A DNA stretch of 10,541 bases, taken from positions 26,351-36,891 of the forward strand of contig DIZT01000068.1 of NCBI GenBank assembly GCA_002427975.1, in the 5' to 3' direction. The translations under genes and the position numbers were made by a program. Shown one piece after another: positions 3,449-10,541 of the stretch (position 1 is the first letter of the stretch; each line of letters starts with the position of its first letter). The notes beneath the pieces are model-generated. The model made no database searches. It was not told where the DNA came from and saw nothing but the letters and a program-made list of their open reading frames with translations. Source of the DNA: Micrococcaceae bacterium UBA6021 (lineage in GTDB: Bacteria; Actinomycetota; Actinomycetes; Actinomycetales; Micrococcaceae).

Positions 3449-4294
3449 ATGACTTCCGCCCCCATCACCACGTCCATCCCCGAGATCACCCTCAATAACG
3501 GCGTGCGGATGCCGCAGTTGGGGTTCGGCGTCTTCCAGGTGTCCGACGACGACACCACCGCCGCGGTCAATCAGGCTCTTGAGGCTGGTTACCGGAGCAT
3601 CGACACCGCCGCCATCTACGGCAACGAGGCAGGTACCGGACGCGCCATCGCCGAGTCGGGCATCGCCCGGGAAGAGCTGTTCATTACGTCCAAGGTTTGG
3701 GTGGCTGACCTCGGCTACGACGCCACGCTGGCAGCGTTCGAGACCAGCCTGGACAAGCTGGGGCTGGACTACCTGGACCTCTACCTCATCCACTGGCCCG
3801 CGCCGGCCACGAACCTGTACCTCGAGTCCTGGCGTGCCCTGGAGCACCTGTTGGCCAGCGGCAAGGTCAGGGCCATCGGGGTATCCAACTTCCTCCCCGA
3901 ACACCTCCAGAAGATCATCGACCTGGGCGGCACCGTTCCGGCCATCAACCAGATCGAGCTCCACCCGGCGCTCCAGCAGCCGGACATTGCGGGCTTCAAC
4001 GCCGCCCATGGGATCGCCACGGAGGCCTGGAGCCCGCTCGCCCAGGGCGCCGTGCTGGCAGACCCGGCCGTTGTGGACATTGCGGCCGGGCACGGTGTGA
4101 GTCCCGCACAGGCCATTCTGCGCTGGCACCTGCAGCAGGGCCGGATCATCATTCCCAAGTCCGTAACGCCCCGGCGGATCCGGGAGAATCTGGACGTCTT
4201 CGGCTTCGACCTGACCGCGGACGAGCTGTCGGTCATCGACGGCCTGGAGCGGGACGGCCGCACCGGTCCGCACCCGGCTGAGTTCAACGGCTAG
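3449..4294 (+). CDS. Aldo/keto reductase (AKR5-like, 2,5-diketogluconate reductase family)
   Basis: A 281-residue NADPH-dependent (beta/alpha)8 oxidoreductase, typical length for the bacterial AKR5/DkgA group. The catalytic tetrad is complete: Asp52 and Tyr57 in GYRSIDTAAIYGNE, Lys82 in ITSKVW, His115 in LYLIHWP. GVSNF (144-148) and the C-terminal IPKSVTPRRIREN (235-247) form the usual nicotinamide-phosphate pocket, where Lys237, Ser238 and Arg243 would contact the 2'-phosphate of NADPH. Likely substrates are reactive aldehydes or ketones such as methylglyoxal or diketogluconate; the sequence does not decide. The start at 3449 has AGGAG six bases upstream. It follows the MFS gene closely under the same MarR-linked promoter region, which suggests a combined export and reduction response to a toxic carbonyl or xenobiotic (inference). 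A repeat and long hairpin follow the stop. Confidence 0.95.
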   Translation: MTSAPITTSIPEITLNNGVRMPQLGFGVFQVSDDDTTAAVNQALEAGYRSIDTAAIYGNEAGTGRAIAESGIAREELFITSKVWVADLGYDATLAAFETSLDKLGLDYLDLYLIHWPAPATNLYLESWRALEHLLASGKVRAIGVSNFLPEHLQKIIDLGGTVPAINQIELHPALQQPDIAGFNAAHGIATEAWSPLAQGAVLADPAVVDIAAGHGVSPAQAILRWHLQQGRIIIPKSVTPRRIRENLDVFGFDLTADELSVIDGLERDGRTGPHPAEFNG

Positions 4295-4331: not shown

Positions 4332-4386
4332 AGTACGACGACGGACGGTCGCCTTCCCCGGGAAGGTGACCGTCCGTCGTCGTACT
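4332..4386. terminator. Long hairpin between convergent aldo/keto reductase and SRPBCC genes
   Basis: Bases 4332-4357 pair with 4361-4386, giving a 26-bp stem with one G-T wobble (4351/4367) and a 3-base loop. It lies between two convergent genes, so bidirectional termination is plausible, followed on the plus side by the short T-run in CTCGTTTAAG. The outer 19 bases of each arm are the same word found singly at 1539-1557, which marks this as a complete palindromic repeat copy rather than a terminator unique to this site. Confidence 0.7.
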
Positions 4387-4401: not shown

Positions 4402-4884
4402 CTAGACCTTGGCGCCGGTGAGCAGTTCGTCCAGCCGCTCGTAGCCTTCGGTCATGCCGCCTTCCATGCCGGATTGTGCCATGCCGTCGCGGGCCTCCTG
4501 GGTGGGATAGACGGAGTGGCCCCGGATGCGGGACCGGCCGTTGCCGAGGTCCTCGAAGGTGAGGAACTCGATGCTGACAACGTCGGGGTAGCCGCCGAAT
4601 TCGAACGTCTGGATGGCGAACTCGTTTTCGCGGACGGTGTGGTAGACGCCGCTGAATTCGTACGGGACGCCGTCTGGACCCGTGTGCAGGTAGCTGTAGC
4701 TGCCGCCGGTGCGGAAATCGAAGTGGTTGATTTCCATCTTCATGCCACGCGGGCCGAGCCACTGGGTGATCAGGGCAGGGTCCTTGTGGGCGCGGAAGAC
4801 GTCCGCAACAGGGAAGTCGAACTCGCGCTCAAAGTCGATGAAGGGGAGTCCTTCAGGAATGGTGAGGTGCAGTGCGTTGCTCAT
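4402..4884 (-). CDS. SRPBCC/AHSA1-domain protein (START-like)
   Basis: A 160-residue soluble protein of the AHSA1/YndB branch of the Bet v 1-like SRPBCC fold, which forms a deep hydrophobic ligand pocket. Family features: FEREFDFPVADVFRAHKDPALITQWLGP (about 18-45; in the family this opens the fold and ends in the W-x-G-P turn), GGSYSYLHTGPDG (60-72), FSGVYHTVRENEFAIQTFEF (77-96) and the C-terminal helix QSGMEGGMTEGYERLDELL (137-155). The start is the ATG at 4884, which overlaps the arsR stop as ATGA and has AAGGAA six bases upstream inside arsR. The frame stays open upstream to 5265, but that stretch is the arsR gene in another frame. ArsR plus AHSA1 pairs are common in actinobacteria; the ligand and physiological role are not known. 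Confidence 0.92.
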   Translation of the reverse strand: MSNALHLTIPEGLPFIDFEREFDFPVADVFRAHKDPALITQWLGPRGMKMEINHFDFRTGGSYSYLHTGPDGVPYEFSGVYHTVRENEFAIQTFEFGGYPDVVSIEFLTFEDLGNGRSRIRGHSVYPTQEARDGMAQSGMEGGMTEGYERLDELLTGAKV

Positions 4885-5240
4885 GATGGTTCCTTGGGGT
4901 GTTCGCCGCTGCTGGCGGCGCTGGATCTGAGCACGGCGTCCAGGCTGCGGAACTGCTCTTCGCGGACCAGCCGGTACTGGTCGATCCACGCTGTGAGTGC
5001 CTCCAGCCGTGCGGGATTCAGGTGGACGGGCCGGCGCTGCGCTTCCCGCGTACGGGTGACGAGCCCTGCCTGCTCCAGGACCTGGATGTGCTTCGAGACC
5101 GCCTGTTTGGTGATCGCGAAGGGTTCCGCCAATTCGTTGACTGTGGCCTGCCCGCGGCTGAGCCGGGCGATGATCCGCCGGCGCACGGGATCCGCCAGGG
5201 CCATAAAGGCCGAGTCCAGGGTGCCGTCGTCGGAGTTCAT
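4881..5240 (-). CDS. ArsR-family winged-helix repressor
   Basis: A 119-residue HTH_20/ArsR-type regulator. The N-terminal helix FMALADPVRRRIIARLSRGQ (12-31) is the family hallmark, followed by helix-turn-helix VNELAEPFAITKQAVSKHIQVLEQAGLV (34-61) and a wing with TREAQRRPVHLN (64-75). It contains no cysteine and no ELCVCDL-type metal site, so it is not a classical arsenite or cadmium sensor; it belongs to the non-metal group usually paired with SRPBCC proteins. The ATG at 5240 is preceded by AGAAAGG at a slightly long spacing of about 11 bases. Its stop overlaps the SRPBCC start (ATGA), implying translational coupling. Upstream (5268-5301) lie two tandem palindromic units that fit an autorepression operator. 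The tail after about residue 106 is low-complexity. Confidence 0.92.
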   Translation of the reverse strand: MNSDDGTLDSAFMALADPVRRRIIARLSRGQATVNELAEPFAITKQAVSKHIQVLEQAGLVTRTREAQRRPVHLNPARLEALTAWIDQYRLVREEQFRSLDAVLRSSAASSGEHPKEPS

Positions 5241-5352: not shown

Positions 5353-5382
5353 TTGCTGACCGCCTTGCAAGTTTGTTAGTAT
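5353..5382 (+). promoter_or_regulatory. Candidate promoter of the tautomerase gene
   Basis: TTGCTG (5353-5358) and TAGTAT (5377-5382) are separated by 18 bases and make a moderate sigma-70-type pair (about 3/6 and 4/6 matches to the consensus). The start point would fall near 5389, giving a leader of about 22 bases that holds AGGGAG before the ATG at 5411. The -10 box lies inside the operator at 5373-5394, so a bound repressor would block it. Confidence 0.5.
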
Positions 5383-5394
5383 GTCAGGACAAAC
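5373..5394. promoter_or_regulatory. IolR-like operator, tautomerase copy
   Basis: This 22-base segment has the core TATGTCAGGACAAAC and differs at only three positions from 5877-5898 in front of iolC. Both have TTGT-N12-ACAA outer arms; here the arms extend to a perfect 8-base inverted repeat, AAGTTTGT (5369-5376) and ACAAACTT (5389-5396). The reverse strand of 5382-5391 reads TGTCCTGACA, which fits at every position the degenerate motif KGWCHTRACA that I recall for the GntR-type inositol repressor IolR of C. glutamicum. It overlaps the candidate -10 box, as a repressor site would. The regulator itself is not in the window. Confidence 0.65.
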
Positions 5395-5410
5395 TTAGGG
5401 AGATGAAGAA

Positions 5411-5815
5411 ATGCCACTGGTACGAATCGATGTTAATCAAGGGCGCAGCGCCGAGGAGTTGCGCCGCCTGAGTCAGGGAATCCATGACGCGATCCTCGCG
5501 GAGTATGCAATCCCGGAGCGGGACTACTTCCATGTTCTGACGGAGCATTCGCAGGGCCAGATTGTCGCCCAGGATGCGGGACTCGGCTTTGAGCGCACTC
5601 CCGATGTGGTGATGATCCAGATCTTTACGCAGGCAGGCCGGAGCCAGGAGGCTAAGCAGTCCCTCTTTGCGGCAATCGCGGACCGGCTGTCGGCACTGGA
5701 TGTTGCCGGTGAGGACGTGTTCATCGGATACGTGGAGAATGCCGCCGGCGACTGGTCGTTCGGCTTCGGGCGGGCCCAGTACATCACGGGAGAACTGGCG
5801 GTTCCCCGAAAGTAG
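5411..5815 (+). CDS. Tautomerase-superfamily protein, malonate semialdehyde decarboxylase-like
   Basis: A 134-residue protein starting Met-Pro, so removal of Met exposes the catalytic Pro1 of the tautomerase superfamily. The start at 5411 is fixed by that proline and by AGGGAG about eight bases upstream. From memory of Pseudomonas pavonaceae malonate semialdehyde decarboxylase (MSAD, about 130 residues), the match runs end to end: MPL, EGR/QGR, VPERD/IPERD, DTGLGF/DAGLGF, and DWSFG-GRA with TGEL near the C-terminus. In Pro1 numbering Asp37 is kept (PERD), an arginine before Ser aligns with Arg75 (here Arg76 after a one-residue shift), but the Arg73 position appears to be Gln. MSAD releases acetaldehyde and CO2 from malonate semialdehyde, an intermediate of the downstream inositol pathway. 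A tautomerase with another keto-acid substrate is equally possible. The gene shares its operator with the iol operon. Confidence 0.88.
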   Translation: MPLVRIDVNQGRSAEELRRLSQGIHDAILAEYAIPERDYFHVLTEHSQGQIVAQDAGLGFERTPDVVMIQIFTQAGRSQEAKQSLFAAIADRLSALDVAGEDVFIGYVENAAGDWSFGFGRAQYITGELAVPRK

Positions 5816-5876: not shown

Positions 5877-5911
5877 TTGTAAATATGTCAGTACAAACCT
5901 TTGACAGGACA
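5877..5911. promoter_or_regulatory. IolR-like operators and promoter region of the iol operon
   Basis: Bases 5877-5898 repeat the tautomerase operator (19 of 22 identical; core TATGTCAGTACAAAC; TTGT-N12-ACAA arms at 5877-5880 and 5893-5896). A second related decamer, TGACAGGACA at 5902-5911, matches the same KGWCHTRACA-type motif at nine of ten positions. The two decamers begin 16 bases apart, enough for two dimers. TAAATA (5880-5885) may be the -10 box by analogy with the tautomerase promoter. Alternatively TTGACA (5901-5906) is a perfect -35, but no good -10 follows at 17-18 bases. The operator assignment is firmer than the promoter assignment. Confidence 0.6.
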
Positions 5912-5990: not shown

Positions 5991-7058
5991 ATGGAGCTCA
6001 AACCAGAAAGGTCCGCGATTACCGTGACCCACGAACTGCTCACGATCGGGCGCATCAGCGTTGATATCTACCCGAACGACATCGGGGTGGATCTGGAGGA
6101 CGTGACGTCCTTCGGAAAGTACCTCGGTGGTTCCCCGTCCAATGTGGCCGTGGCCGCCGCGCGGCATGGCCGCAATGCAGGCGTGATCACGCGCACCGGC
6201 GACGACGCCTTCGGGAAATACCTCCACCGTGAACTGCGCAAGTTCAACGTGGATGACAGCTTTGTCACCCCCGTCAAGGAGTGGCCCACAGCCGTGACGT
6301 TCTGCGCCATCATGCCGCCGGATGATTTTCCGCTCTACTTCTATGGGCGTTTCCCCACGGCGCCTGACCTGCAGATCAAGGCCGCCGAGCTGGACCTGGA
6401 AGCCATCCGCGAGGCCAGGATCTTCTGGTCGACGGTGACTGGCCTGTGCCAGGAGCCCAGCCGCGAGGCCCACCTGGCCGCCCATGCTGCCCGTCCGCGG
6501 ACCGGTCTCAAGGAAGGCCAGTACACCATCCTGGACCTGGACTACCGGCCCATGTTCTGGGCCTCCGAAGAGGACGCCCGGGCCGAGGTTGCAAAGATCC
6601 TGCCGCACGTCACGGTGGCTATCGGCAATGACAAGGAATGTGCCGTCGCCGTGGGCGAAGGAACCCCTGACGAGCAGGCCGACCGGCTACTGGCCGCCGG
6701 CGTGGAGATCGCCGTCGTCAAGCTTGGGCCGGAAGGCGTTATGGCGAAGACCCGCACCGAACGTGTTGTCTCCGCGCCGGTTCCGGTGGAGACCGTCAAC
6801 GGCCTCGGTGCCGGCGACTCGTTTGGTGGAGCCTTCTGCCACGGACTGCTGTCCGGCTGGCCCCTGGCCCAGATCCTGGATTACGCCAACGCCGCCGGCG
6901 CCATTGTGGCCTCCCGCCTTTCCTGCGCCGACGCCATGCCGACGCCGGAGGAAGTCACCTCGCTGCTGGCCGAACGCGGCCGCCTGGTACCCGCCCTGGC
7001 CGGTGCCGCCGCCTCACGCCCGTCCCACACAACAGTTTCCGAAGGAGCAGCGTCTTGA
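5991..7058 (+). CDS. iolC: 5-dehydro-2-deoxygluconokinase (PfkB family)
   Basis: A 355-residue sugar kinase of the PfkB/ribokinase family that phosphorylates 5-dehydro-2-deoxy-D-gluconate to the 6-phosphate, a middle step of inositol breakdown in the cytoplasm. It has TIGRISVDIYPNDIG (18-32), the first PfkB signature GGSPSNVAVAAARHG (46-60), TRTGDDAFGKY (68-78) and the second signature with the anion hole and catalytic base, NGLGAGDSFGGAF (270-282; Asp276 is the base). The start is uncertain: the ATG at 5991 has AGAGG only one base upstream, which is too close. An in-frame GTG at 6024 has AGAAAGG about 12 bases upstream and gives the compact N-terminus (V)THELLTIGR. In many proteobacteria IolC is fused to a DUF2090 aldolase-like domain; here the protein ends after the kinase, and a separate aldolase gene follows, overlapping by four bases. 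Confidence 0.95.
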   Translation: MELKPERSAITVTHELLTIGRISVDIYPNDIGVDLEDVTSFGKYLGGSPSNVAVAAARHGRNAGVITRTGDDAFGKYLHRELRKFNVDDSFVTPVKEWPTAVTFCAIMPPDDFPLYFYGRFPTAPDLQIKAAELDLEAIREARIFWSTVTGLCQEPSREAHLAAHAARPRTGLKEGQYTILDLDYRPMFWASEEDARAEVAKILPHVTVAIGNDKECAVAVGEGTPDEQADRLLAAGVEIAVVKLGPEGVMAKTRTERVVSAPVPVETVNGLGAGDSFGGAFCHGLLSGWPLAQILDYANAAGAIVASRLSCADAMPTPEEVTSLLAERGRLVPALAGAAASRPSHTTVSEGAAS

Positions 7059-7984
7059 GCGCCAACGATGATCCCCGCCGCTATCAGCACCTCAGCGCCC
7101 TCCGGCTCGAAGACCCCGACGCCGTTGCCCGCGCGGCAGCCACCCGTCGCCGCCATCCGGGATTGAAGTATGGTGTGCAGAACTTCATTGTTGCCGCCGA
7201 CCACCCGGCCCGCGGCGCCCTGAGTGTCGGCAACGACCCCGTGGCAATGGCGGACCGCCGCCAGCTCCTTGACCGGCTGCAGATCGCCCTGGCCAACCCG
7301 GCCGTGGACGGCATCCTCGCCTCGCCGGACATCATGGACGATCTGCTCCTGCTGGGTGCCCTGGACGGAAAGCTCGTCTTCGGCTCCATGAACCGTGGCG
7401 GGCTCGCCGGTTTGGTCAACGAATTCGACGACCGCTTCACCGGGCACACCGCTGCGGCGCTGCAGGAACTCGGCGCCGATGGCGGCAAGATGCTCACCCG
7501 CATCTGCCTCGGCGATCCGGACACCGTTTCCATCCTGGAAGCCACCGCGAAGGCCATTGATTCACTCGCCGAACGCAAACTCATTGCCATGGTGGAACCG
7601 TTCCTGTCCGTCCGCGAAAACGGCCGGGTCCGCAACGATCTCTCAACGGACGCCGTGATCAAGTCCGTAGCCATCGCCCAGGGTCTGGGCTCCACGAGCG
7701 CCTACACCTGGATGAAGCTTCCTGTTGTGGCCGAAATGGACCGCGTTATGGCCTCCACCACCATGCCCACGGTGCTGCTCGGCGGGGACCCTGCTGGCAC
7801 CCAGGACGAGGTCTTTGCCAGCTGGCAGGCCGCCCTGGCCCTGCCGAACGTGCAGGGACTGACGGTAGGGCGCACCTTGCTCTACCCGCACGACGGAGAT
7901 GTTGCCGGCGCCGTCGCAACAGCCGCCTCGCTGCTGCAGCATTTCAGTCCCCTCAACCGAGTCCACGCAGAAGTATCGGAGTAA
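7055..7984 (+). CDS. Cgl0159-family (beta/alpha)8 aldolase, candidate DKG-phosphate aldolase
   Basis: A 309-residue class I aldolase-like barrel, often labelled deoxyribose-phosphate aldolase or Cgl0159 family in actinobacterial inositol clusters. Visible features are FIVAADHPARG (44-54), a candidate Schiff-base lysine Lys221 in YTWMKLPVV, IAMVEPF with Glu181 (177-183), LLGGDPAG (241-248) and VGRTLLYP (271-278), the last two placed like phosphate-binding turns of aldolase barrels. I infer that it cleaves 6-phospho-5-dehydro-2-deoxygluconate to DHAP and malonate semialdehyde (the IolJ reaction), because it lies between the kinase that makes this substrate and enzymes of the same pathway, and the fused DUF2090 domain is absent from IolC. 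It starts with TTG at 7055, overlapping the iolC stop as TTGA, with AAGGAG seven bases upstream inside iolC. The exact reaction is not proven by sequence. Confidence 0.88.
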   Translation: MSANDDPRRYQHLSALRLEDPDAVARAAATRRRHPGLKYGVQNFIVAADHPARGALSVGNDPVAMADRRQLLDRLQIALANPAVDGILASPDIMDDLLLLGALDGKLVFGSMNRGGLAGLVNEFDDRFTGHTAAALQELGADGGKMLTRICLGDPDTVSILEATAKAIDSLAERKLIAMVEPFLSVRENGRVRNDLSTDAVIKSVAIAQGLGSTSAYTWMKLPVVAEMDRVMASTTMPTVLLGGDPAGTQDEVFASWQAALALPNVQGLTVGRTLLYPHDGDVAGAVATAASLLQHFSPLNRVHAEVSE

Positions 7985-7987
7985 CCC

Positions 7988-9931
7988 ATGGCTACCCGCA
8001 GAATGACGGTCGCGCAGGCCGTGGTGGAGTATCTGTCCAAGCAGTACACCGTTGACCGGATCGGCGATCAGGACTACCGCGAGCGGCTGATTCCGGGCAC
8101 GTTCGGCATCTTCGGCCACGGAAACGTTGCCGGTGTGGGCCAGGCGCTGAAGCAGTACCAGCACGCCGATCCCACGATCATGCCGTACTACCAGGGGCGC
8201 AATGAGCAGGCCCAGGTGCACCAGGCAGTGGGCTACGCACGTCACACCCGCCGGCGGCAGACGTTCGCAATCAGCACATCGATCGGTCCGGGTTCCACCA
8301 ACCTGCTCACCGGTGCGGCGCTGGCCACCACCAACCGGCTGCCCGTGCTGCTGCTGCCCAGCGATACCTTTGCCACACGCGCCGCGGACCCGGTGCTCCA
8401 GCAGCTGGAACGCCCGGATGCCTATGACGTCACCGTCAACGATGCCTTCCGTCCGCTGTCCCGCTTCTTCGACCGGGTCTCACGTCCGGAGCAGCTGTTC
8501 TCCGCTTTCCATCACGGACTGCGCGTCCTCACGGACCCGGCCGAGACCGGCGCCGTCACCATCTCTCTGCCTCAGGACGTCCAGGCTGAGGCCTTCGACG
8601 TTCCCGAGGAATTCCTCGCCGAACGCGAATGGCGGATCCGACGCCCCGACGCGGACGACGACGACATCCGCCGCGCCGCCGACGCCATCCGCGCCGCCAA
8701 ACGCCCCCTGATCATCGCCGGCGGTGGCGTGCTGTACGCCTATGCCAACGATGAACTGGCCAGGTTCGTGGAGCTGACCGGCATCCCGGTGGGAAACACC
8801 CAGGCCGGCGTCGGCGTCTTGCCGTGGGACCACCGGTTCTCGCTCGGCGCCATCGGTTCCACAGGCACGACGGCAGCCAATGCCATCGCCGCCGAAGCGG
8901 ACCTGATCATCGGGATTGGCACCCGCTACGAGGACTTCACCACTGCCTCGCGGACCGCCTTCCAGAACCCTGACGTGAAGTTCATCAACATCAACGTTGC
9001 GCCGATTGATGCCTACAAGCACGGCACGTCGCTGCCGATCGTCGCCGACGCGCGCAAGGCCCTGATCAAGCTGAACCAGGCACTGGGCGGTTACCGCGTG
9101 GGTGCGGACCTCGAACGGGCCATCGCTTCCGAGAAGGAACGCTGGAATGCCACAGTGGACGAGGCCTTCGATACCCGCTTCACGCCATTGCCGGCGCAGA
9201 ACGAGATCATTGGCGCTACGAGCCGCGCCATGGACGCGCAGGATGTTGTCATTTGCGCCGCGGGTTCGCTTCCGGGCGACCTGCACAAGATGTGGCGCGT
9301 CCGTGACGCATTCGGCTACCACGTGGAATACGCGTACTCCTGCATGGGCTACGAAATTCCCGGCGGCCTGGGCGTCAAGCGCGCAGCGCTGGCGGAGGCA
9401 GCAGCGGGCGGCGCACAGCGCGACGTCGTGGTGATGGTGGGGGACGGTTCCTACCTGATGATGCACACCGAACTGGTCACCGCCGTCGCCGAACGGATCA
9501 AACTGATCGTGGTGCTGATCCAGAACCACGGCTACGCCTCGATCGGCTCCCTCTCCGAATCGCTGGGGTCCCAGCGATTCGGAACCCAGTACCGTGCCTT
9601 GGACGAGGACAACCACAGCTTCGACGACGGCGAGAGGTTGCCTGTTGATCTCGCACTGAACGCCGAAAGCCTCGGTGTGAAAGTGATCCGGATTGAACCG
9701 GGGGAGAAGGTCATCGCCGAGCTGGAGCAGGCCATCCGAGATGCCAAGGCGGCGCCTGAAAAGGGCGGCCCGATCGTCATCCACGTCGAATCCGATCCGC
9801 TGCTGGATGCTCCCAGCTCCGAGTCCTGGTGGGATGTTCCGGTGTCGCAGATCTCGGAACTCGAATCCACCCGGCAGGCCTTCAAGAGCTACACGACAAA
9901 CAAGAACCGCCAGCGCACGCTGCTGGGCTGA
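7988..9931 (+). CDS. iolD: 3D-(3,5/4)-trihydroxycyclohexane-1,2-dione acylhydrolase, ThDP-dependent
   Basis: A 647-residue thiamine-diphosphate enzyme, the normal size for IolD. It hydrolyses the C-C bond of trihydroxycyclohexane-1,2-dione (made from inosose by IolE) to 5-deoxyglucuronate. The N-terminal pyrimidine-binding domain has YYQGRNEQAQVHQAVGYAR with the cofactor-activating Glu73, followed by a TSIGPGSTNLLTGAALA stretch. A central domain (about 215-390) resembles the acetolactate synthase family middle domain. The C-terminal PP domain has the ThDP/Mg motif starting GDGSY (485-489) and ending at Asn513 in IQNHGY. The start at 7988 has GGAG six bases upstream and lies only three bases after the aldolase stop, so the operon is tight. 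The C-terminal ESWWDVPVSQ segment is typical of IolD. No motif is missing. Confidence 0.97.
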   Translation: MATRRMTVAQAVVEYLSKQYTVDRIGDQDYRERLIPGTFGIFGHGNVAGVGQALKQYQHADPTIMPYYQGRNEQAQVHQAVGYARHTRRRQTFAISTSIGPGSTNLLTGAALATTNRLPVLLLPSDTFATRAADPVLQQLERPDAYDVTVNDAFRPLSRFFDRVSRPEQLFSAFHHGLRVLTDPAETGAVTISLPQDVQAEAFDVPEEFLAEREWRIRRPDADDDDIRRAADAIRAAKRPLIIAGGGVLYAYANDELARFVELTGIPVGNTQAGVGVLPWDHRFSLGAIGSTGTTAANAIAAEADLIIGIGTRYEDFTTASRTAFQNPDVKFININVAPIDAYKHGTSLPIVADARKALIKLNQALGGYRVGADLERAIASEKERWNATVDEAFDTRFTPLPAQNEIIGATSRAMDAQDVVICAAGSLPGDLHKMWRVRDAFGYHVEYAYSCMGYEIPGGLGVKRAALAEAAAGGAQRDVVVMVGDGSYLMMHTELVTAVAERIKLIVVLIQNHGYASIGSLSESLGSQRFGTQYRALDEDNHSFDDGERLPVDLALNAESLGVKVIRIEPGEKVIAELEQAIRDAKAAPEKGGPIVIHVESDPLLDAPSSESWWDVPVSQISELESTRQAFKSYTTNKNRQRTLLG

Positions 9932-9946: not shown

Positions 9947-10541
9947 ATGACTATCACCATCAAGCATTTCATCAACGGCGCTGAGACTGCCGGCGAGGGC
10001 GACCGCACCCAGCCCGTCTACAACCCCGCCACCGGCGCCGTCTCCGCAGAGCTGCGGCTGGCCAACCGGGCAGACCTGGACGCCGCCGTCGCGGCCGCCA
10101 AGGCAGCTGCGGTCAGCTGGGGCAATTTCTCCCTGGCCAAGCGCACAGGCGTGCTCTTCAAGTTCCGTGAACTCGTCGCAGCACATATTGACGAGCTCGC
10201 CGCCCTGATCACCGCCGAGCACGGCAAGGTCCTTTCCGATGCCAAGGGCGAGATCGGCCGCGGCCTGGAGGTCATCGAGTTCGCCTGCGGCATTCCGCAG
10301 CTGCTCAAGGGTGACTACTCGGACCAGGTGTCCACCGGGATTGACGTCTTCTCGTTCCGCGAACCGCTGGGCGTCGTTGCCGGCATCACGCCGTTCAACT
10401 TCCCGGTCATGGTGCCGCTGTGGATGGCTCCGATGGCGATCGCCACCGGCAACGCCTTCATCCTCAAGCCCTCCGAACGGGACCCCTCCGCGTCCATGCT
10501 GCTGGCAAAGCTGTGGAAGCAGGCCGGCCTGCCCGACGGCG
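9947..10541 (+). CDS. iolA: Methylmalonate/malonate semialdehyde dehydrogenase (CoA-acylating), N-terminal part
   Basis: Partial; the gene runs off the end of the window after 198 complete codons of an expected 490-500. It encodes an aldehyde dehydrogenase-fold enzyme that converts malonate semialdehyde (or methylmalonate semialdehyde) with CoA and NAD to acetyl-CoA (or propionyl-CoA), the last step of inositol catabolism. Family-specific segments are present: HFINGAE (7-13), YNPATG (25-30), AEHGKVLSDAKGEIGRGLEV (90-109), GITPFNFPVMVPLWM (146-160) with Asn151, and NAFILKPSERDPSAS (169-183), where Lys174 would bind NAD. The catalytic cysteine lies beyond the window. The ATG at 9947 has AAGGAA six bases upstream and starts 15 bases after the iolD stop. 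The alternative name mmsA, for valine catabolism, cannot be excluded by sequence, but the operon position favours the inositol role. Confidence 0.93.
   Translation, partial: MTITIKHFINGAETAGEGDRTQPVYNPATGAVSAELRLANRADLDAAVAAAKAAAVSWGNFSLAKRTGVLFKFRELVAAHIDELAALITAEHGKVLSDAKGEIGRGLEVIEFACGIPQLLKGDYSDQVSTGIDVFSFREPLGVVAGITPFNFPVMVPLWMAPMAIATGNAFILKPSERDPSASMLLAKLWKQAGLPDG

Follow-up and report, generated by a model that had tools for sequence, protein, structure and literature searches.

A predicted malonate semialdehyde decarboxylase gene of the iolK kind, linked to inositol catabolism genes in Micrococcaceae and their relatives

Background

For Lactobacillus casei BL23, an inositol operon is on record that includes both iolA and an MSAD-type gene: Yebra et al. 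2007 reportedly described the product of its iolK gene as a probable malonate semialdehyde decarboxylase (MSAD) and proposed two fates of malonic semialdehyde, including conversion to acetaldehyde. The iolK gene closes a single operon, which is controlled by a DeoR-type IolR. IolK of strain BL23 is counted among the studied MSADs (PMC10606566) and iolK is named as an iol gene of L. casei (PMC2530867), a precedent that contradicts the remark in the first-pass annotation of the DNA analyzed here that no established tautomerase step of the iol pathway is known.

Solved structures are available for the MSAD of coryneform bacterium FG41 (PDB 3mjz, 3mlc, 4lho, 4lhp) and for that of Pseudomonas pavonaceae (PDB 2aag, 2aal), two enzymes that are 39% identical to each other. 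FG41 is of chloroacrylate origin, and its enzyme has been studied in connection with haloacrylate degradation. Guo et al. 2013 are said to have found its decarboxylase activity to be comparable to that of the Pseudomonas enzyme and its hydratase activity to be much weaker. MSADs of the FG41 type are expected to be homotrimers that decarboxylate malonate semialdehyde. The best-known MSAD is an enzyme of the dichloropropene pathway (PMC10606566).

In Corynebacterium glutamicum, which was used as a control, iolB scores over the cut-off, and a PF14552 match is present somewhere in the genome. The iol regulator IolR of this bacterium is of the GntR type, and no MSAD is known from its iol cluster. 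As stated in PMC6856214, the Iol enzymes yield malonic semialdehyde, which IolA can convert to acetyl-CoA.

Results and Discussion

By sequence, an MSAD of the FG41 type

The window, i.e., the whole stretch of 10,541 nucleotides analyzed here, contains on the plus strand an open reading frame (5411..5815) for a protein of 134 amino acids that matches PF14552 (Tautomerase_2) over its whole length with 104.2 bits against a cut-off of 28, and PF01361 as well. A search for relatives among solved structures identifies the FG41 MSAD as the closest (3mjz, E 8.5e-47) and the Pseudomonas pavonaceae MSAD as the runner-up (2aag, E 7.8e-22); the three top matches are all MSADs. In the alignment, the identity to the FG41 MSAD is 56% over the whole length, and all nine compared active-site residues are the same, namely Pro1 (following the initial Met, which is left out of the numbering) and Asp37, Thr72, Gln73, Arg76 and Tyr123 of the set typical of FG41, and Trp114, Phe116 and Leu128 of the hydrophobic wall. 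The resemblance to MSAD along the length of the protein, the presence of Pro1 and Asp37 and the DWSFGFGRA region, all pointed out in the first pass, are borne out, and among the solved MSADs the FG41 enzyme is the closest, with its residue set present. The Pseudomonas enzyme belongs to the same family and shares Pro1, Asp37, Trp114 and Phe116 but possesses the pair Arg73 and Arg75 where the alignment places Gln73 and Arg76 in the present protein, with one inserted residue. The nine residues are those listed for the FG41 type in PMC10606566, with Thr72, Gln73, Arg76 and Tyr123 taking the place of this pair.

The letters of the FG41 protein at positions 1, 37, 72, 73, 75, 76, 113, 114, 116, 123 and 128 are all retained in 105 of 119 extracted proteins; this reading covers 119 of 142 loci, the crude pattern having missed 23, and includes some loci that are the same gene fetched twice. 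The NCBIfam models for 4-oxalocrotonate/2-hydroxymuconate tautomerases score 25.4, 23.0 and 19.8 bits, far under the respective cut-offs of 55, 103 and 86. In the databases, close relatives bear names such as “phenylpyruvate tautomerase PptA” and “tautomerase family protein”. By sequence, the product of 5411..5815 is an MSAD of the FG41 type. Of the two activities envisaged in the first pass, that of a hydratase appears less likely because Thr72, Gln73 and Tyr123 replace Arg73 and Arg75 and because the hydratase activity of the FG41 enzyme is reportedly weak; a decarboxylase that would open an acetaldehyde branch beside IolA seems to be the best reading.

The iol neighborhood

The MSAD gene is followed, on the same strand, by iolC (5-dehydro-2-deoxygluconokinase, 5991..7058; TIGR04382, 363.6 bits, cut-off 300), a Cgl0159-like gene for a probable aldolase with a putative IolJ function (7055..7984; PF22649, 396.5 bits), iolD (THcHDO hydrolase, 7988..9931; TIGR04377, 827.9 bits, cut-off 715) and the N-terminal part of iolA/mmsA ((methyl)malonate-semialdehyde dehydrogenase, 9947..10540), which runs off the window, so that the score of this partial gene with TIGR01722 (262.6 bits) is under the cut-off of 448.5. 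The GTG at 6024 (VTHELL...) matches the ORF start MTHELL in another genome (G388), and iolC probably starts there rather than at the ATG at 5991. Further downstream on the contig, iolE-, iolG-, iolH- and transporter-like genes are recognizable by resemblance, the TIGR04379 score of iolE being below the cut-off. The MSAD gene is therefore located, in the manner of iolK, in an iol cluster together with iolA, iolC and iolD.

As iolB lies outside the window, the tautomerase was considered as a substitute for an absent iolB. This reading was rejected: iolB is present in the organism's own assembly (contig C293). Among the genomes searched for this gene, 21 of 22 possess it. The ExaC model, the only one searched for acetaldehyde dehydrogenase (4 genomes), has no match in the iol locus; elsewhere in the genome, it scores over the cut-off in three of the four and just under it in the window organism's assembly.

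Several additional features of the window were noted. Two genes that overlap by 4 bases, one for an ArsR-type regulator and one for an AHSA1/SRPBCC protein (4402-5240, minus strand), are divergent from the MSAD gene; the same pair precedes iolC in G177, a genome without MSAD. To the left of this pair and near the MSAD gene, there is an aldo/keto reductase gene (3449-4294, plus strand, PF00248), beside which the assembly search for the operator described below reported no match. Downstream of sucD, two arms of 25 bp form a perfect inverted repeat (AAGCAACGCGGGGTCACTTACGGCC at 1465-1489, complement at 1509-1533), which would be a terminator or a repeat element. The sequence GTACGACGACGGACGGT is found at 1540 (1540-1556), again at 4333 and in inverted orientation at 4369-4385, in the manner of a short interspersed repeat (both detected by eye).

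An operator common to the MSAD gene and iolC

The MSAD gene and the iolC operon are preceded by nearly identical operators, TTGTTAGTATGTCAGGACAAACT at 5373..5395 and TTGTAAATATGTCAGTACAAACC at 5877..5899, respectively, both on the plus strand. The similarity of the MSAD promoter region to that of iolC had been observed in the first pass and extends well beyond this genome: the two operators are present in 30 of 30 and 29 of 30 orthologous loci (the window's own, 28 of the same genus and one of another genus). Inside the MSAD operator, there is a -10-like TAGTAT (5377-5382), and the hexamer TTGCTG (5353..5358), located 18 bp before it, is a candidate -35 element chosen by eye. Directly after the iolC operator comes a -35-like TTGACA (5901..5906; all three hexamers are on the plus strand, and their letters and those of both operators were verified in the sequence), and TTGACAG is found directly 3' of this operator in 29 of 30 loci. 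The placement of the operator over a -10-like element at the MSAD gene and before TTGACAG at iolC fits repression of the promoters predicted from these hexamers.

The pattern TATGTCAGKACAAAC has exactly two perfect matches in the 3.79-Mb assembly, the MSAD and iolC operators; with up to two mismatches, there are 6 sites, compared with 1 for the reversed pattern. A one-mismatch match represents a third site on the same contig. This third operator copy, AATGTCAGGACAAAC, follows a LacI gene (L008:9133, i.e., near 45932 on the organism's own contig C280, and L044:4616); in G388, the third site directly precedes an operon for a sugar-type ABC transporter that may be an inositol importer. Across 12 near-complete genomes, there are 24 exact matches to WATGTCAGNACAAAC, each of them no more than 9 kb from iolD, and the reversed control yields 0. 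These assembly-wide and 12-genome counts, set against the reversed controls, rule out an operator that arose by chance. An inositol regulon that extends to many other places in the chromosome was also considered and rejected given that exact sites outside the iol locus are absent from the 12 genomes. Read on their reverse strands, the MSAD operator (TGTCCTGACA) agrees with KGWCHTRACA, the putative IolR motif of C. glutamicum, and the iolC operator does so with one mismatch; the literature search found no paper on this motif.

Gene neighborhoods in relatives suggest a candidate regulator. A GntR/UTRA gene adjoins iolB in those Micrococcaceae loci of relatives where both were found, and in most Curtobacterium loci among the best 80 of 383 related loci, it is located next to the MSAD gene, in convergent orientation. 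Rothia has a GntR-iolB pair with the MSAD gene beside it in divergent orientation. The 10 MSAD/GntR intergenic regions of the Rothia type include 6 distinct ones, of which 3 contain TGTCCTRACAAAC-type sites, that is, the same core reversed, and the other 3 only the related TTTGTWAGGACAAA form; in a locus of genus g8 (L149), TTGTTAGAATGTCAGGACAAAC is found about 40 bp before the MSAD start. Judging by gene position in these relatives rather than in the window's assembly, a GntR/UTRA (IolR-like) protein probably represses both the MSAD gene and iolC. The presence of an iol operator at the MSAD gene agrees with an iolK-type assignment. The arrangement differs from that described for L. casei iolK: here, in Actinobacteria, the gene is a leading one that has an operator and apparently also a promoter to itself, and it is probably under a GntR regulator.

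Linkage to iol genes in the family and the phylum

In a sample of 395 genomes of the family, an MSAD match (E<=1e-10) is present in 132 and an IolD match in 185. When only MSAD matches of at least 150 bits are considered, 116 genomes have both genes, 0 have MSAD only, 69 have iolD only and 210 have neither. A failure to co-occur with iol genes had been named in the first pass as grounds for abandoning its proposal; within the family, the association holds in 116 of 116 genomes, which, because these genomes are related, are not independent events. The MSAD step appears to be optional because 57 of the 185 iolD-bearing genomes lack a match at 60 bits or more, and 69 lack one at 150 bits or more. 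A match of at least 60 bits is found in 67 of the 69 iolD-bearing genomes of the window's genus, two of these being fragments, and in 61 of 116 from other genera of the family. In the genome G177, the iol operon is retained together with the iolC operator, but there is no PF14552 match at all.

Of the 117 MSAD copies with at least 150 bits, 114 are within an iol locus; 102 of these, as measured against the 150 iolD matches listed, are about 2.0-2.3 kb upstream of iolD on the same strand. Twelve further copies belong to the iol locus in another gene order: four of genus g8 are located after the operon (G062, G163 and G176 as inspected, G122 by coordinates), seven of the Rothia type adjoin GntR-iolB, and one is near iolB and GntR (G316). 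The remaining three are outside the iol locus shown, at a distance of 457 kb (G301) or on another contig (G106 and G324). No iol gene was found in the stretches fetched around four weaker MSAD copies (G355, G169, G085 and G356). The differing gene orders are a stronger argument for the connection between MSAD and the iol genes than the genome counts.

Two genomes of this sample show peculiar arrangements. Contig C1 of G227 carries two iolD genes, near 3.04 Mb and 4.13 Mb, each with an MSAD gene about 2.2 kb upstream. In G106, there is no MSAD gene upstream of iolC, and a 62%-identical copy is found on another contig (L045, L046); in the tree, this copy forms a long branch among Curtobacterium proteins and was possibly acquired by transfer.

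Linkage across the phylum was examined and discarded. In 376 genomes, MSAD matches (E<=1e-8) occur in 10 and iolD in 56, and linkage is seen only in the window's genus. None of the eight MSAD matches outside this genus is beside iolD: one is about 0.6 Mb away (G607), one is on another contig (G691), one is megabases away (G521), and five are in genomes without iolD.

Named relatives and phylogeny

For the best 80 of 383 related loci, flanks of at most 10 kb were fetched and scored for six iol-specific genes (iolB, iolC, iolD, iolE, iolH and the Cgl0159 gene). Two or more of these accompany the MSAD gene in 55 loci and at least one in 56. The linked loci come from Curtobacterium, the largest group, Frigoribacterium, Frondihabitans, Rathayibacter, Rothia, Kocuria, Arthrobacter, Pseudarthrobacter and others. 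No iol-specific gene is found in the flanks of the other 24, which include loci from Mycobacteroides, Mycolicibacterium, Streptomyces, Pseudoclavibacter, Cryobacterium, two Rothia and Acidipropionibacterium. In five Pseudoclavibacter loci of this set, a GntR gene adjoins the MSAD gene, and in one of these loci (L080), the other side encodes a TIM-barrel protein and an oxidoreductase that are 81% and 79% identical, respectively, to proteins of the window organism's iol contig. In one Cryobacterium locus (L070), the MSAD gene follows by 111 bp a gene for an aldehyde dehydrogenase of TIGR01722, the IolA family (695.4 bits, cut-off 448.5), and no other iol gene is found in the fetched flanks; this neighbor points straight to malonate semialdehyde as the predicted substrate. 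The flanks fetched for another Cryobacterium locus (L111) contain no iol gene.

A tree was constructed for 143 rows, i.e., 141 of 142 loci (at least 105 amino acids), some of them duplicates, and two PDB sequences. A large clade of 113 rows (support 99/90) includes 97 iol-linked and 16 unlinked ones. Nine other rows form a clade apart from it (100/95), namely two unlinked rows and the seven copies of a second MSAD type from another genus (g6; L139-L144 and L050), which are 43-49% identical and have Phe123 in place of Tyr123; all seven are located in an iol cluster. The tree forces at least nine changes between linked and unlinked states, its deep joins being rough because there are few columns and the bootstrap is unsettled. 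Either the iol-linked MSADs were repeatedly taken up into iol clusters or there was one old uptake followed by many losses. The FG41 MSAD itself, unlike the protein of the window, groups with Mycobacteroides proteins for which the fetched flanks, in the set of the best 80 of 383 loci, contain no iol genes. Given this grouping and the 24 unlinked loci among the best 80, enzymes of the FG41 type are not all inositol enzymes.

These data bear on two other readings of the gene. The g6-type copies are divergent from iolE in four of seven loci and near iolB in the other three, and enol-keto tautomerization is a main reaction type of the superfamily (PMC5818174); both observations would suit an enzyme that serves another iol intermediate in an enol-keto step, e.g., the IolE product or the deoxy-keto-gluconate stage. 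We consider this improbable in view of the conserved FG41 residue set, the low scores with the 4-oxalocrotonate tautomerase models and the Cryobacterium gene that is accompanied by a malonate-semialdehyde-type dehydrogenase and by no other iol gene in its flanks. Even less credible is an accidental iol neighbor, that is, an MSAD of a haloacrylate pathway or a general detoxifier. An MSAD does act in 1,3-dichloropropene degradation (PMC10606566), and FG41-type copies without iol neighbors occur among the best 80 of 383 loci, but the linkage extends across several gene orders and two clades, and the MSAD gene has an iol operator at its own promoter.

Predicted role in inositol catabolism

The observations described above are best compatible with an iolK-like MSAD of the FG41 type that would convert malonate semialdehyde to acetaldehyde and CO2 as a second exit beside IolA, under the control of the iol operator; we put the probability of this reading at about 0.83. 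Under this scheme, inositol would be converted to malonate semialdehyde by the Iol enzymes, and MSAD, without a cofactor, would then act on it beside the CoA- and NAD-dependent IolA. Since IolA consumes malonate semialdehyde and the cofactor-free decarboxylase is under an iol operator, its reaction would constitute a second exit; with iolA present, MSAD would be unnecessary for clearing this compound. By analogy to the studied enzymes, Pro1 is expected to act as the general acid, together with Asp37, whereas the substrate would be gripped by Thr72, Gln73 and Tyr123 against the hydrophobic wall formed by Trp114, Phe116 and Leu128. The general acid role of Pro1 in MSAD is stated in PMC5818174 and PMC11641302. 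In the absence of inositol, the GntR/UTRA (IolR-like) protein would probably repress transcription through the TGTCAGNACA operator, which is located over the -10-like region of the predicted MSAD promoter and upstream of iolC. Induction by inositol, decarboxylation of malonate semialdehyde in vivo and subsequent use of the acetaldehyde are predictions of this model.

Under a variant of this scheme, the enzyme would not provide a carbon route but would mainly keep the toxic aldehyde or the redox balance in check, removing malonate semialdehyde only when a shortage of CoA or NAD limits IolA. The optional presence of MSAD among iol-bearing genomes and the retention of iolA alongside it are compatible with such a function; the common iol operator, however, is explained by it no better than by the branch model, and the two would look alike at the level of sequence. 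We regard this variant as rather unlikely, although its odds overlap with those of the second-exit reading. The most likely role of the MSAD appears to be that of a second, regulated way out for malonate semialdehyde that is optional among genomes with iol genes.

The kind of gene is known from iolK of Lactobacillus casei; the new parts are its wide conservation and its own operator in the relatives of Arthrobacter. The literature search, with most subscription papers beyond reach, found no paper that deals with MSADs in iol clusters of actinobacteria. On balance, we favor, with some reservation, a regulated decarboxylase exit that is conserved in the inositol catabolism of Micrococcaceae and several Microbacteriaceae and was apparently taken up more than once from different MSAD clades.

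If this is the case, Arthrobacter relatives fed on inositol would routinely produce acetaldehyde, and the usual end of inositol breakdown, conversion to acetyl-CoA by IolA, would be incomplete as a description of these bacteria, as the present analysis suggests. For many proteins that are currently named PptA or “tautomerase family”, the linkage together with the common operator allows a concrete natural substrate and regulon to be proposed. Inositol breakdown would then be a natural setting for MSADs that are otherwise known from pesticide degraders.
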